Source: Rhodocyclaceae bacterium
GTDB taxonomy: Bacteria > Pseudomonadota > Gammaproteobacteria > Burkholderiales > Rhodocyclaceae
Assembly: GCA_030689585.1 (NCBI GenBank)
Contig: JAUYFZ010000150.1
Coordinates: forward strand, 1-5,414
Direction of reading: 5' to 3'
Length of the DNA: 5,414 bases
In this document: in pieces, positions 2,041 to 5,414 of the stretch
Layout of the letters: each line of letters starts with the position of its first letter
Position numbering within the stretch: the first letter of the stretch is position 1
Notes under the pieces: generated by a model
What the model was told of the DNA's origin: nothing
Database searches by the model: none
The model's input: only the letters and a program-made list of their open reading frames with translations
Translations under genes and position numbers: made by a program

Positions 2041-3045
2041 TTAAATCATCGGTCGCTTCAAGCGATTGCAGGATTTTGCGTAAGCGTCGAGAAAGCCTTT
2101 TTCTGCCAATCGAAAATCATTAAGTTCATAAATAGCTAAAAGCGAAAGGATGTAATCGCGTTTGGTAAAATCAACAAAGGAAATCGGAGGTAGCCCTGCT
2201 TGCAAGAGGGGCACGTTACAAATGGCACGAGCAGTTCGTTTGTTGCCATTCTGGAAAGGTTGGAGATACGGCAATCGCGTCATGAGATAAAAGGCGGCCT
2301 GAATCGGATCGTTAATATCGGCAGATCTAGCCAGCACAGTTTCCAGCATTTTTGCCACATACCCAGTGCCAGGGCGAAATACTGGTGAATAGGTGCTAAA
2401 GGCAATGTCTACCGGCATATATTCGCGTGTCACTCCTCGAAACTGAGCAGTTAAAAAATGATCTGATTCTGCCAGTGCTTCCTGTTCGTGATCGTTTGTT
2501 AATAACGCGTGGACTTGAAAGATGGAATCAAGACTGGGGTGATCATATAGATACTCGAAGGCTACTCGGTGATTCAAGACAAGAATGGCATCTTCTGCCG
2601 GTTTATTTGGGTTGCGTTCCCCGTAGTTGAACAATGCTTGCGTGTCGAGCATCGAATAGCTGCCCCCTTCTAGCACGGAAGATGCACAGGCAAAATCAAT
2701 TAGGAATTTTGCCATCTCACGTCGGCTCAAAGATGCGGGGGGCAAAGAATTGGGGAAAGCGACTAATTGGATCGGCACATAATCCAGCGTTTCTTCGCGA
2801 TATCGTGCAATTGGGCGTTCGGTATGTGATTTCAGGAAGTAGGTTGTTATTGCGGCTAACGGGTCAGTGCTGAAATAACGCACCGCCGGACCCCGTCCCG
2901 ACTGCCTGAACAAGCCTGCATCACACCCTGCTTTTAACCAGCGATTGAGCGTTGGACGACTAATATTCAAGCGATTCGCCAATGCACCCGCAGCCACTCC
3001 CAAGGGGTATTCGTCAATAATTTTTAGCAGGTCGTTCTGTGACAT
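2041..3045 (-). CDS. Fic-family protein with N-terminal HTH and a His-to-Gln Fic motif
   Basis: This 334-residue protein has the layout of HTH-Fic proteins. Residues 1-60 form a predicted (winged) helix-turn-helix (ALANRLNISRPTLNRWLK), followed by a linker and a Fic fold. The inhibitory motif [S/T]xxxE[G/N] is intact: S122, E126, G127 (SSVLEG). The Fic motif at 262-273 reads QPFQNGNKRTAR, where the classical form is HPFxxGNGRxxR. The catalytic His is replaced by Gln (codon CAA), while P, F, GN and both Arg remain; Lys after GN is also seen in Doc-type proteins. Classical Fic enzymes use the His to transfer AMP or another nucleotide part to target hydroxyls, so ordinary AMPylation is doubtful here. 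I recall a subfamily with Q at this position, so this is probably lineage-specific and not fresh decay. The ATG lacks a clear Shine-Dalgarno sequence. No separate antitoxin gene is adjacent. The HTH suggests self-regulation (inference). Confidence 0.93.
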   Translation of the reverse strand: MSQNDLLKIIDEYPLGVAAGALANRLNISRPTLNRWLKAGCDAGLFRQSGRGPAVRYFSTDPLAAITTYFLKSHTERPIARYREETLDYVPIQLVAFPNSLPPASLSRREMAKFLIDFACASSVLEGGSYSMLDTQALFNYGERNPNKPAEDAILVLNHRVAFEYLYDHPSLDSIFQVHALLTNDHEQEALAESDHFLTAQFRGVTREYMPVDIAFSTYSPVFRPGTGYVAKMLETVLARSADINDPIQAAFYLMTRLPYLQPFQNGNKRTARAICNVPLLQAGLPPISFVDFTKRDYILSLLAIYELNDFRLAEKGFLDAYAKSCNRLKRPMI

Positions 3046-3046
3046 G

Positions 3047-3060
3047 ATAAGTTTACTTAT
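3047..3060. promoter_or_regulatory. Small palindrome just upstream of the Fic start (possible operator)
   Basis: ATAAGT and ACTTAT flank a TT spacer, giving 6-bp perfect arms that begin 2 bp before the Fic start codon. The position would suit a repressor site bound by the Fic protein's own HTH, but that is inference. The site is short and AT-rich, so chance is possible. Confidence 0.3.
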
Positions 3061-3084
3061 TTGTTATTGTTTGGTTTTTTGGCT

Positions 3085-3107
3085 ATCTTATCATGCGATG
3101 ATGAGAT
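3085..3107. promoter_or_regulatory. Inverted repeat overlapping a candidate Fic promoter
   Basis: ATCTTATCAT (3085-3094) and ATGATGAGAT (3098-3107) are inverted repeats matching at 9 of 10 positions around GCG. On the minus strand the left arm reads TGATAAGAT, an extended -10-like element about 40 bp before the Fic start. The -35 match is poor (TGAAAA, 17 nt away). An operator over a -10 box would permit autorepression. The evidence is positional only. Confidence 0.35.
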
Positions 3108-3163
3108 TTTCACAAAAAAGCAAGAAGAGACTCAAAACAAGGTAGAAAACAATGGGGTCAGGT

Positions 3164-3649
3164 GTTCGCAGTAACAGTAAGTTAGCTAGCGGGTTAAAGT
3201 CCCGTCCGAGGAATTGTCCGTACGCCTCGGTAGTACGAAAAAGCGGCGTTTGAGTAATCAAGGGTCGTGAGTTCTTTACGACAAAGAAGCAGACCGTAAC
3301 GCAAGTGAACCTAGAAGTAGCCTCGTCAACTTTTTGCGGTTGTCGACCTTGTGCTTGTATAGGGAAGACTGTCATGCTGATGTGTTGGTAATGGAAGCCA
3401 TATCAGTGAGACGTCGGGGTAGCAGGGTCGGTATGTGTCGGAAGTTAAATTAGCCAGTGCTGGAGATCCGGTACGGTGGCAGGGAGACTGCCAAACAGGC
3501 TGTATAAGGAGACGAAATCAGCCTGTATCGTGCTGGAAGTCGGAGGGGTTCATAGTACTGCTTGAAGTCGATGGACAACATAACCATGACTGAGGGAAGG
3601 AACCCTGCTTTGTTCATGCAACCAAAGAGTAAAGGATAGCGGGATTGCC
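3164..3649 (+). ncRNA. Group II intron 5' ribozyme region (domains I-III, start of IV)
   Basis: These 486 nt hold no convincing gene and show many local hairpins, as expected for domains I-III. Examples are CGGG/CCCG near 3199-3213, GGCAG/CTGCC at 3478-3482/3488-3492, and CAGGCTG/CAGCCTG at 3496-3502/3519-3525. Exact domain borders and the exon-binding sites EBS1 and EBS2 could not be fixed by eye. Confidence 0.75.
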
Positions 3650-4981
3650 ATGTTGCTAACCACCCCAAGAAATATCAGGATACTCCAGAGGAAGCTATAC
3701 ATCAAAGCCAAGCAAGAGCCAAGCTATCGTTTTTACGCGCTCCACGACAAGATCTATCGTGCCGACATCCTCAAGTGGGCGTGGTGTCTAGTCAAGGCAA
3801 ACAAAGGCAGTCCCGGCATTGATGGGATAGACTTTGCAGCCATAGAGAACGGCGAAGGGGTAGATTGCTACTTGTCGGAAATAAGCAGTCAACTGAAGGA
3901 CAAAAGCTACCGGACGAGTCCGGTTAAGCGCGTAATGATTCCCAAAGCGGACGGCAGCATGCGCCCGCTAGGGATACCGACGATACGAGACCGCGTGGTG
4001 CAGATGGCGACCAAGCTGGTGATTGAGCCTATCTTTGAAGCGGATTTTTGTGACAACTCCTTCGGGTTTCGCCCCAAGAAATCTGCCCATCAAGCGATAG
4101 ACGCGATTGCTCAAGCTTTGTGGCAAGGTAAAACGCAAGTTATTGATGCTGACCTGTCGAAATATTTTGACACTATTCCGCACGTCAATCTGATGGCAAT
4201 GATTGCTGAACGCATTGTAGATGGGGCGGTGTTAGCACTCATCCAACAATGGCTCAAAGCCCCTGTAATTGGAAAAAGCGAAAACGGAAAAGCGGCAACG
4301 GTAGGTGGCGGCAAAGGCAATCGGCGTGGCACACCGCAAGGCGGGGTGATCTCACCGTTGCTATCGAACCTCTACCTGCATATCCTAGATAGAATCTGGC
4401 AACGCCACGAATTAGGCAAGAAACTGCAAGCGACATTGGTGCGATATGCCGATGACTTTGTAGTGCTGTGCCGTGGTGATACGCAAAAGCCACTGGACTA
4501 CATTAAGTGGATATTGGAGCGGCTAGAACTGACGTTAAATGAAACAAAGACAAAAATTGTCGATGCCAAAGAGACGTCATTTCGATTCTTGGGATTTGAT
4601 TTGCAAATGAACGTGTCCGAAAAAAAGGGCACGCTGTATCCGTACATCGAGGCATCGGAAAAGGCGGTAGAAAAGATCAAAGCGCGTTTGAGTGAATTGA
4701 CCGACAGAACCCAAACATGGAGACCGATAGAAGACGTGGTGCGCGATGTCAATCAAGTGCTGCGTGGCTGGTCTGGCTATTTCCATTATAGGAACTCGTC
4801 AAGGCAATTTCGAAAAGTGAAGCGTCACTCAGAAGATCGGCTTAGGATACATCTGCGTAAGCGGCACAAAATCAGCGATTGGGAAACGAGCATGTTGCGT
4901 TTCCCAAGACGAGTGCTGTATGAGAAATATGGGCTGTATCCATTAGCGACAAAAGCAGGTTGGAAGTCGGCGCATGCTTGA
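3650..4981 (+). CDS. ltrA: Group II intron-encoded reverse transcriptase/maturase (no endonuclease domain)
   Basis: This 443-residue protein binds its own intron RNA, aids splicing and copies it into DNA at new sites. The RT domain spans about 35-320. It shows KANKGSPGIDG near 49-59, IPKADGSMRPLGIPTIRDR at 97-115, SFGFRPKKSAH at 137-147, catalytic D168 in IDADLSKYFD, RRGTPQGGVISPLLSN at 225-240, and the YADD box at 266-269 with both Asp present. The maturase (X) domain follows at about 335-443, with RGWSGYFHYRNSS at 372-384. The protein ends without the C-terminal HNH endonuclease domain, as in several bacterial intron classes; such introns usually insert using nicks at replication forks or single-stranded targets. 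AAAGGA at 3631-3636 is 13 nt before the ATG, rather far. The gene is intact and sits inside the intron. The symbol is the generic family name, not an orthology claim. Confidence 0.96.
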   Translation: MLLTTPRNIRILQRKLYIKAKQEPSYRFYALHDKIYRADILKWAWCLVKANKGSPGIDGIDFAAIENGEGVDCYLSEISSQLKDKSYRTSPVKRVMIPKADGSMRPLGIPTIRDRVVQMATKLVIEPIFEADFCDNSFGFRPKKSAHQAIDAIAQALWQGKTQVIDADLSKYFDTIPHVNLMAMIAERIVDGAVLALIQQWLKAPVIGKSENGKAATVGGGKGNRRGTPQGGVISPLLSNLYLHILDRIWQRHELGKKLQATLVRYADDFVVLCRGDTQKPLDYIKWILERLELTLNETKTKIVDAKETSFRFLGFDLQMNVSEKKGTLYPYIEASEKAVEKIKARLSELTDRTQTWRPIEDVVRDVNQVLRGWSGYFHYRNSSRQFRKVKRHSEDRLRIHLRKRHKISDWETSMLRFPRRVLYEKYGLYPLATKAGWKSAHA

Positions 4982-4997
4982 TGCAAAGAACATCGGA

Positions 4998-5030
4998 AAG
5001 CCGTGTGCGGGAAAATCGCATGCACGGTTT
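4998..5030 (+). ncRNA. Group II intron domain V (catalytic hairpin)
   Basis: A 33-nt hairpin. The basal stem is AAGCCGT/ACGGTTT, with the catalytic AGC triad at 4999-5001. A two-nt GC bulge follows on the 3' side, then an upper stem GTGCG/CGCAT capped by a GAAA-containing loop. This is the standard domain V shape and binds the catalytic metals. Confidence 0.88.
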
Positions 5031-5033
5031 GAT

Positions 5034-5069
5034 GAGGGAGGGCAGGTGAAAACCTGCTCTCTACTCTAC
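5034..5069 (+). ncRNA. Group II intron domain VI with branch-point adenosine and 3' splice site
   Basis: The stem is AGGGCAGGT (5039-5047) against ACCTGCTCT (5052-5060), with a GAAA tetraloop. It extends through G5038-C5061 and G5037-T5062, then resumes at G5036-C5064 to G5034-C5066. A5063 stays unpaired and is the likely lariat branch point, 6 nt before the intron end (TAC, 5067-5069). Confidence 0.8.
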
Positions 5070-5121
5070 CTTGAATTACGACTTTTGTTATCGCCTCGGT
5101 CGCGATTCAAGACTTGACCCC

Positions 5122-5283
5122 CTCCCTGCCTACCTGCCCGCTGCGGACTACCGGTTGTTCTTTGGTTTTTCCAATCGCACTGCCATTTGGGTTGTCGCCG
5201 AATTGCATTTGATGTTTGCGGCGTTCGTGCTGGGTGTGCCGATTCATCCCGCTATCTTCGCCGGTTACTTTATTTCTACATGA
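5122..5283 (+). pseudogene. Remnant of a membrane-protein gene next to the split repeat
   Basis: The open frame runs from at least 5071 (TTG) to the TGA ending at 5283. Its first 17 codons are repeat sequence; the part from 5122 looks protein-like. It contains LPAADYRLFFGFSNRTAIW, then a hydrophobic stretch of about 20 residues (AIWVVAELHLMFAAFVLGVPI) predicted to cross the membrane. It contains a His that could be a haem ligand in a cytochrome-like helix (speculative). I recall similar N-terminal helices in cytochrome-type membrane proteins, but cannot verify this. No ATG/GTG start or ribosome binding site precedes it. The protein stops right after the first helix, so it is best read as a 5' gene fragment left by a rearrangement. 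A genuine small membrane protein is a less likely alternative. Confidence 0.4.
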
Positions 5284-5287
5284 TGTT

Positions 5288-5315
5288 TTGTTTACGCATT
5301 GAAGCGATATATGCT
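5288..5315 (+). promoter_or_regulatory. Weak candidate sigma-70-like promoter
   Basis: TTGTTT (5288-5293) and TATGCT (5310-5315) are separated by 16 nt, ahead of the ATG at 5327. Both boxes match the consensus only in part. With just 11 nt between the -10 box and the ATG, the transcript would be nearly leaderless. Confidence 0.22.
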
Positions 5316-5326
5316 ACATTACGCGA

Positions 5327-5414
5327 ATGAATAATGGATTAAATTCTTCTTCAACCGGGGCGGCAAGCCGTTTTATTGATGCCAAGTTGGCCACGGGATT
5401 CGTTAGTTTTCCAC
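5327..5414 (+). CDS. Possible start of an unidentified protein (3' end outside window)
   Basis: An open frame of 29 codons from ATG at 5327 runs off the window. It begins MNNGLNSSSTGAASRFIDAK and continues LATGFVSFP. A polar, Ser-rich N-terminus followed by a more hydrophobic part is compatible with a protein about to enter a membrane segment, but the piece is too short to tell. There is no Shine-Dalgarno sequence before the ATG. The product is not recognised. It could also be a chance frame. Confidence 0.35.
   Translation, partial: MNNGLNSSSTGAASRFIDAKLATGFVSFP

Follow-up and report, generated by a model that had tools for sequence, protein, structure and literature searches.

The window analysed here is a whole contig of 5,414 bases within a 1.7 Mb draft genome, and it raises the question of how a group II intron came to lie inside one arm of a palindrome. 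Because the palindrome can be read either as a sequence or as a shape, the locus offers a natural case for separating these two routes into such a site. The interrupted palindrome is 62 nt long and of REP type, and the intron probably found its place in the arm through pairing between its EBS1 (GCTTG) and CAGGT rather than by recognition of a hairpin. In what follows, genomes, contigs and loci carry the prefixes G, C and L, and a caret marks a junction.

The intron and the palindrome it interrupts

Positions 3164–5069 correspond to a group II intron that is predicted to be mobile, its splicing and retrohoming being likewise predictions (Table 1). It is flanked by a Fic-domain gene (2041–3045, opposite strand) and by a stretch without a recognised gene. 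The intron-encoded protein, located in domain IV, scored 386.5 bits with TIGR04416 (cut-off 300) and matched only RVT_1 and GIIM in Pfam; no HNH/En domain was found, with about 33 aa beyond GIIM, in agreement with a preliminary description of this DNA, in which the protein was said to lack En. A promoter scan of 3000–5414 gave three promoter-like sites compared with 2.9 expected.

Table 1. Features of the intron and its target in the window
Feature	Position	Strand	Description	Basis
Group II intron	3164..5069	+	1906 nt, GTTCG...CTCTAC	Rfam RF02003 and RF00029; aligned relatives' ends
5' ribozyme region	3187..3304	+	group-II-D1D4-4	RF02003, 58.7 bits
EBS1	3353..3357	+	GCTTG	Column from covariation over 11 introns; 1/1000 permutations reached it
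Intron-encoded protein	3650..4981	+	443 aa	RT (PF00078) and maturase (PF08388)
Domains V and VI	4996..5069	+		RF00029, 57.7 bits
Left arm, 5' part (5' exon)	3154..3163	+	GGGGTCAGGT	Joined-arm test; EBS1–IBS1 covariation
IBS1 (last 5 nt of 5' exon)	3159–3163	+	CAGGT	EBS1–IBS1 covariation
Left arm, remainder (3' exon)	5070..5082	+	CTTGAATTACGAC	Joined-arm test
Right arm	5099..5121	+	GTCGCGATTCAAGACTTGACCCC	Joined-arm test

Joining 3163 to 5070 gave GGGGTCAGGTCTTGAATTACGAC, which pairs with the right arm at 20 of 23 positions; in the outer part of the joined arms 16 of 17 positions were paired, the sole mismatch being a G-T wobble. Deletion of 3164–5069 brought back a 62-nt inverted repeat with a predicted fold of -36.9 kcal/mol, and its palindrome score was equalled by none of 3000 shuffles of the flanks (maximum 11, compared with 15.5). 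The pairing after removal and the shuffles bear out the earlier reading that a group II intron split one palindrome arm. In a grid of nearby junctions the top score of 15.5 was reached by 3163^5070 alone. The claim made with that reading, that no neighbouring junction would serve, was too strong, since the four slid junctions 3162^5069, 3164^5071, 3165^5072 and 3166^5073 scored 13.0 each, one match lower, so that the palindrome alone fixes the ends less firmly than had been stated.

Both intron ends were nevertheless given correctly, and they are supported independently by the ends of relatives, by Rfam, by EBS1–IBS1 pairing and by uninterrupted copies of the arm. At the homologous places, related introns start with GTTCG, GTACG or GTATG, in six bases GT(T/A)(C/T)GC, and nearly all finish with CTCTAC; the exceptions, both in one genome, were L031 (start GCACGCC, end CTCTAA) and L080, which has the same 3' end. 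The Rfam D5–D6 match stops at 5069, and EBS1–IBS1 pairing agrees with an exon end at 3163. Uninterrupted relatives of the left arm run across the junction as GGGGTCAGGTCTTG on contig C252 of the window's own genome (two copies), in G882 (three copies) and in G849 (one copy), and the following bases (GGGGTCAGGTCTTGCATTACGACATT) were also present in the three G882 copies and, as a near copy, in G849.

A search for the uninterrupted 62-nt element, as the preliminary description had proposed, recovered no full-length empty copy among 300 genomes of the order, with at most three first-look candidates scored per genome. A strict pattern for the uninterrupted palindrome, which proved too strict, found none in 61 genomes of the family, the window's own genome being among the misses because the intron interrupts its copy. 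Inverted-repeat searches of the two flanks separately were blank, as expected with the arms split, and no match was found in viral contigs. The lack of a full-length empty copy in the 300 genomes is what might be expected if the palindrome had not been a pre-existing target and had arisen by chance or after insertion, but the shuffles and the uninterrupted arm copies in the window's own genome, G882 and G849 make this origin extremely improbable.

The palindrome is of the dispersed REP type, belonging to a family associated with Y1 transposase genes. Exact copies of GGGGTCARGTCTTG numbered 278 and were spread over 78 of the 369 genomes searched in the class, compared with 8 matches for the reversed control (copies were totalled from the listing and control matches counted by eye); only four copies were present in the window's own genome. 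A Y1-like frame lay within 400 nt at 11 of 30 fetched GGGGTCARGTCTTG loci, these frames being found by regular expression without a matched control set, and a further match, L144, was judged spurious. PF01797 was matched by six of the seven proteins tested, that is by six full frames. The seventh, a 52-aa contig-end fragment from C252, gave no PF01797 match; it begins like the PF01797 proteins, and two uninterrupted repeat copies stand directly before it. At L116, L131 and L141 inverted repeat copies flank a Y1 (IS200-like) transposase gene at both ends. Such a combination of palindromic repeat and Y1 transposase gene is known as a REP with its RAYT. The target repeat family resembles REP/RAYT systems in flanking Y1_Tnp genes in inverted orientation, whereas the arms of the copy in the window enclose no transposase gene, and no Y1 match was found among the window's five proteins. 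A candidate Y1 gene beside L016, where only an 88-aa frame contained the motif, was discarded.

A second inverted repeat in the window (ACCGTTCGTCCTAAGCTTGTCGAA ... TTCGACAAGCTCACCACGAACGGT, 1957–2028, read by eye) is intergenic and follows a response regulator gene.

Pairing and hairpins at the sites of related introns

Twenty-four proteins were gathered, of which L021 and L022 were dropped as too short, and the resulting 22-protein tree, built without labelled reference classes, placed the window with L038 and with a second copy from its own genome, L004 (93/89). The wider group comprised 14 proteins (84/85), including Scalindua, Syntrophus, Smithella and G247 members, and clade members were found in Thermodesulfobacteriota, Planctomycetota and the window's class. 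For class D, L166, a candidate RmInt1 only, fell outside on a long branch, and two Sinorhizobium meliloti matches were 30.3 and 31.9 % identical. L031, whose 5' exon likewise ends in GGGGTCAGGTC^, was separate from the window in the tree, which suggests that the left-arm type is old or arose twice. Classes A, C, D, E, F and g1–g4 have been defined (PMC3552965). The window's protein is likely not of class C, and the class C hallmark of a stem-loop directly upstream of IBS1 was not found in the window, where the junction lies inside the left arm.

L004 (contig C105) has its 5' end off the contig and an insert of about 230 nt with inverted ends (CAGCCTGTCGGACTTA) directly after the protein frame; L147 has domain V twice in tandem; and the 3' end of L149 is doubled around a run of N, which may be an assembly artefact.

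The EBS1 column was identified by comparing aligned 5' ribozyme parts with each intron's own 5' exon, 11 introns being scored of 14 aligned; of four G247 copies one was scored, and the deletion copy was omitted. It paired GGTCA with TGACC, GGACA with TGTCC and GACTT with AGGTC. This column was the best of 470 and was equalled by 1 of 1000 permutations, a figure that is not a clean probability because the introns are related and because the permutations used the word length and offset already picked in the covariation step. No convincing IBS2–EBS2 column emerged at offsets up to 10. The pairing in the window is short, GCTTG and CAGGT forming 5 bp by three Watson–Crick pairs and two wobbles (4.0 of 5, with a wobble counted as half). 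L170 fits additionally (GCTCCC with GGGAGT), and L017 fits weakly (three of five pairs). L171, with a 64 % identical protein and a 5' junction near 1000, lies in GGGGACGCTAC^CCTTTTATG and is a plain exception: its EBS1, GGACGC, is unpaired with the 5' exon GCTAC and would match the opposite end of a GGGGACGC palindrome. A later deletion might account for the mismatch; a short stem spans this junction.

A significant inverted repeat in or at the junction was present at five of 18 clade sites (none of 200 shuffles equalled it), namely the window, L021 and the G247 loci L094, L093 and L088. The other 13 sites gave p values from 0.06 to 0.88. The test reached 70 nt on each side, with the 5' flank only for L021 and L022; its 18 sites did not include L089 (with just 12 nt of 5' flank), the G247 deletion copy or the later sites L149, L170 and L171. 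Hairpin targeting, as raised in the preliminary description, is not supported by these results: insertions lacking an inverted repeat had been named there as evidence against it, and 13 of the 18 sites have no significant repeat at the junction. Nor is the position constant among the hairpin sites: the window's junction falls within the left arm, and those of L021, L094, L093 and L088 fall within 0–6 nt of the right arm's 3' end.

Class-C-like recognition, in which the intron would recognise a stem-loop extruded in single-stranded DNA, and would insert in or next to it, could draw on the five significant sites, four of them with the junction so close to the right arm's 3' end, and on L092, which was negative in the hairpin test and whose exon end recurs 285 nt upstream as a perfect 12-nt inverted copy, a distant partner arm. 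The 13 sites without a significant junction hairpin argue against it, as does the window itself, where the junction lies 10 nt inward from the outer end of the stem and the target would be buried once the hairpin had formed. Such recognition is quite improbable; given the five strong hairpin sites and L092, structure may still help insertion.

What fixed-distance hairpin sites look like was seen in a second intron family, Y, in G247 (loci L097–L115), which also counts in favour of hairpin recognition. Twenty stretches were fetched, giving 17 distinct 5' junctions located 5 nt past a REP-like stem (ATCGCCGAGGGGGCTCGGCTCCTA^GTGCG, with the junction motif TCCTA^GTGCG); 15 of the 17 were recognised by a script rule and two (L104 and L108; GCGCC/GGCGC) by eye. 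Eight different arm pairs were counted by the script, one of them the misregistered L104/L108 pair, indicating stems that vary with pairing kept. The family Y protein shared 36 % identity with that of the window across 414 columns and scored 225.8 bits with the solved GsI-IIC RT, compared with 176.0 bits for the window. Family Y is apparently a class-C-like intron living in REP hairpins. It shows hairpin-linked targeting; the window's clade does not.

EBS1–IBS1 pairing accounts for the sites better than hairpin targeting, with L171 as the exception and L017 as a weak case, and sequence targeting, often of REP-like ends, is the better description of the clade. By sequence targeting, a spliced lariat RNP would reverse-splice into the arm and, without an endonuclease, cDNA synthesis would be primed from a replication-fork strand; such priming has been reported for introns lacking endonuclease (PMC4424553).

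Known systems and REP ends as a target

Class C (IIC) introns are found at terminators and attC sites (PMC4424553, PMC8919778, PMC7923331). Like the window's intron, they have an RT/maturase without En and lie in or beside inverted repeats in intergenic DNA, but they insert directly after the stem-loop, whereas the window's intron splits the left arm itself and a junction stem-loop is missing from most of the clade members tested. Hairpin siting outside class C, held to be notable in the preliminary description, has already been reported, since the g6, U1 and U2 types occur at hairpins or terminators (PMC8919778). These are likewise non-C types directly after hairpins, at terminators rather than REPs, and were set beside the clade by description. 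UHB.I2, a IIB intron that immediately follows an attC site, is a further non-class-C intron at a palindromic site, for which its authors speculate on a role of the structure (PMC7923331); it differs in its CL1 protein and is one case.

REPs themselves are known insertion targets. Two of nine copies of a Pseudomonas putida KT2440 group II intron are associated with REPs (PMC1525189); compared by description, this is a minority association, and the account of it gives no mechanism for the intron. Among the matches listed in the literature that links group II introns to hairpin sites, REPs or RAYTs, it was the only direct report at REPs. IS elements such as ISPpu9 and ISPpu10 target REPs (PMC1525189) and so share a repeated target for a mobile element, but use DNA transposases, not RNA-guided reverse splicing. 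In Thiomargarita, a palindromic repeat family in one case precedes a group II-like RT gene (PMC4853749). The likeness is a palindromic repeat adjoining an intron-like RT; that gene has an endonuclease motif and falls below the intron cut-off, and it is described without junction analysis. Class C siting at hairpins is known already, as are the placement of further types close to terminators and insertion into REPs; a clade keeping to REP ends through EBS1 change is what would be new.

A clade-wide specialisation of endonuclease-free introns on RAYT-type REP ends, with EBS1 rewritten for each REP family and palindrome end and the introns following REPs between genomes, is proposed here only tentatively. 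Repetition, an intergenic position and dispensability may be what favours REP-type ends. The clade appears to keep this kind of target whilst EBS1 varies: many members have TG(A/T)CC^ at right-end-like sites, and the window, L031 and L170 have CAGGT(C)^ and GGGAGT^ after GGGGTC. If instead any site pairing with EBS1 were taken, REP copies would be hit merely as repeated sequences. Most scored sites are indeed explained by EBS1–IBS1 pairing, and no REP-like end was seen at L017, L018 or L149, nor a clear one at L038. The likeness among sites, however, extends past IBS1: TG(A/T)CC^CC was counted by eye at 12 of 23 sites with a readable 5' exon (nine of the 12 in one genome, G247), GGGGTC precedes IBS1 in the window, L031 and L170, and strong inverted repeats stand at five of the 18 tested sites. 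Abundance alone is also a weak reason for the REP sites, given only four copies of GGGGTCARGTCTTG in the window's own genome, and insertion without any specialisation seems unlikely.

If the specialisation is real, the REP system would offer an RNA-guided retroelement a safe harbour common to the clade's hosts, with one retroelement housed in the debris of another transposon system and with EBS1 changes recording target switches. It is directly testable, and would be useful for reprogrammable intron tools.

Multiple clade copies within a single genome were available in G247, where nine distinct full-length copies were all preceded by CTGT(C/T)C^ and followed by CC; the 3' end of a truncated piece, L084, is followed by CT instead. 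Other G247 sites carry a half element only, for example TAAGTAAACTGTCC^CCGAA. The G247 repeat core AGTAWACTGTCCC had eight uninterrupted copies, with no control matches, and three of the eight were opposite arms adjoining intron copies L094, L093 and L092. Partner arms lay within reach at L094, L093 and L088, and at the longer distance already given for L092. No Y1 motif was found in the scanned flanks of eight G247 copies. Short direct duplications (for example CCGGAACC three times, CCGAATTACCC twice, and repeats of CTGTCC) were seen at the start of the 3' exons of L083, L093, L090 and L092, possibly reflecting stutter at cDNA priming or clustered half-REPs. L086/L087 is a deletion derivative, which matches only the first 78 nt and the last 245 nt of the intron.
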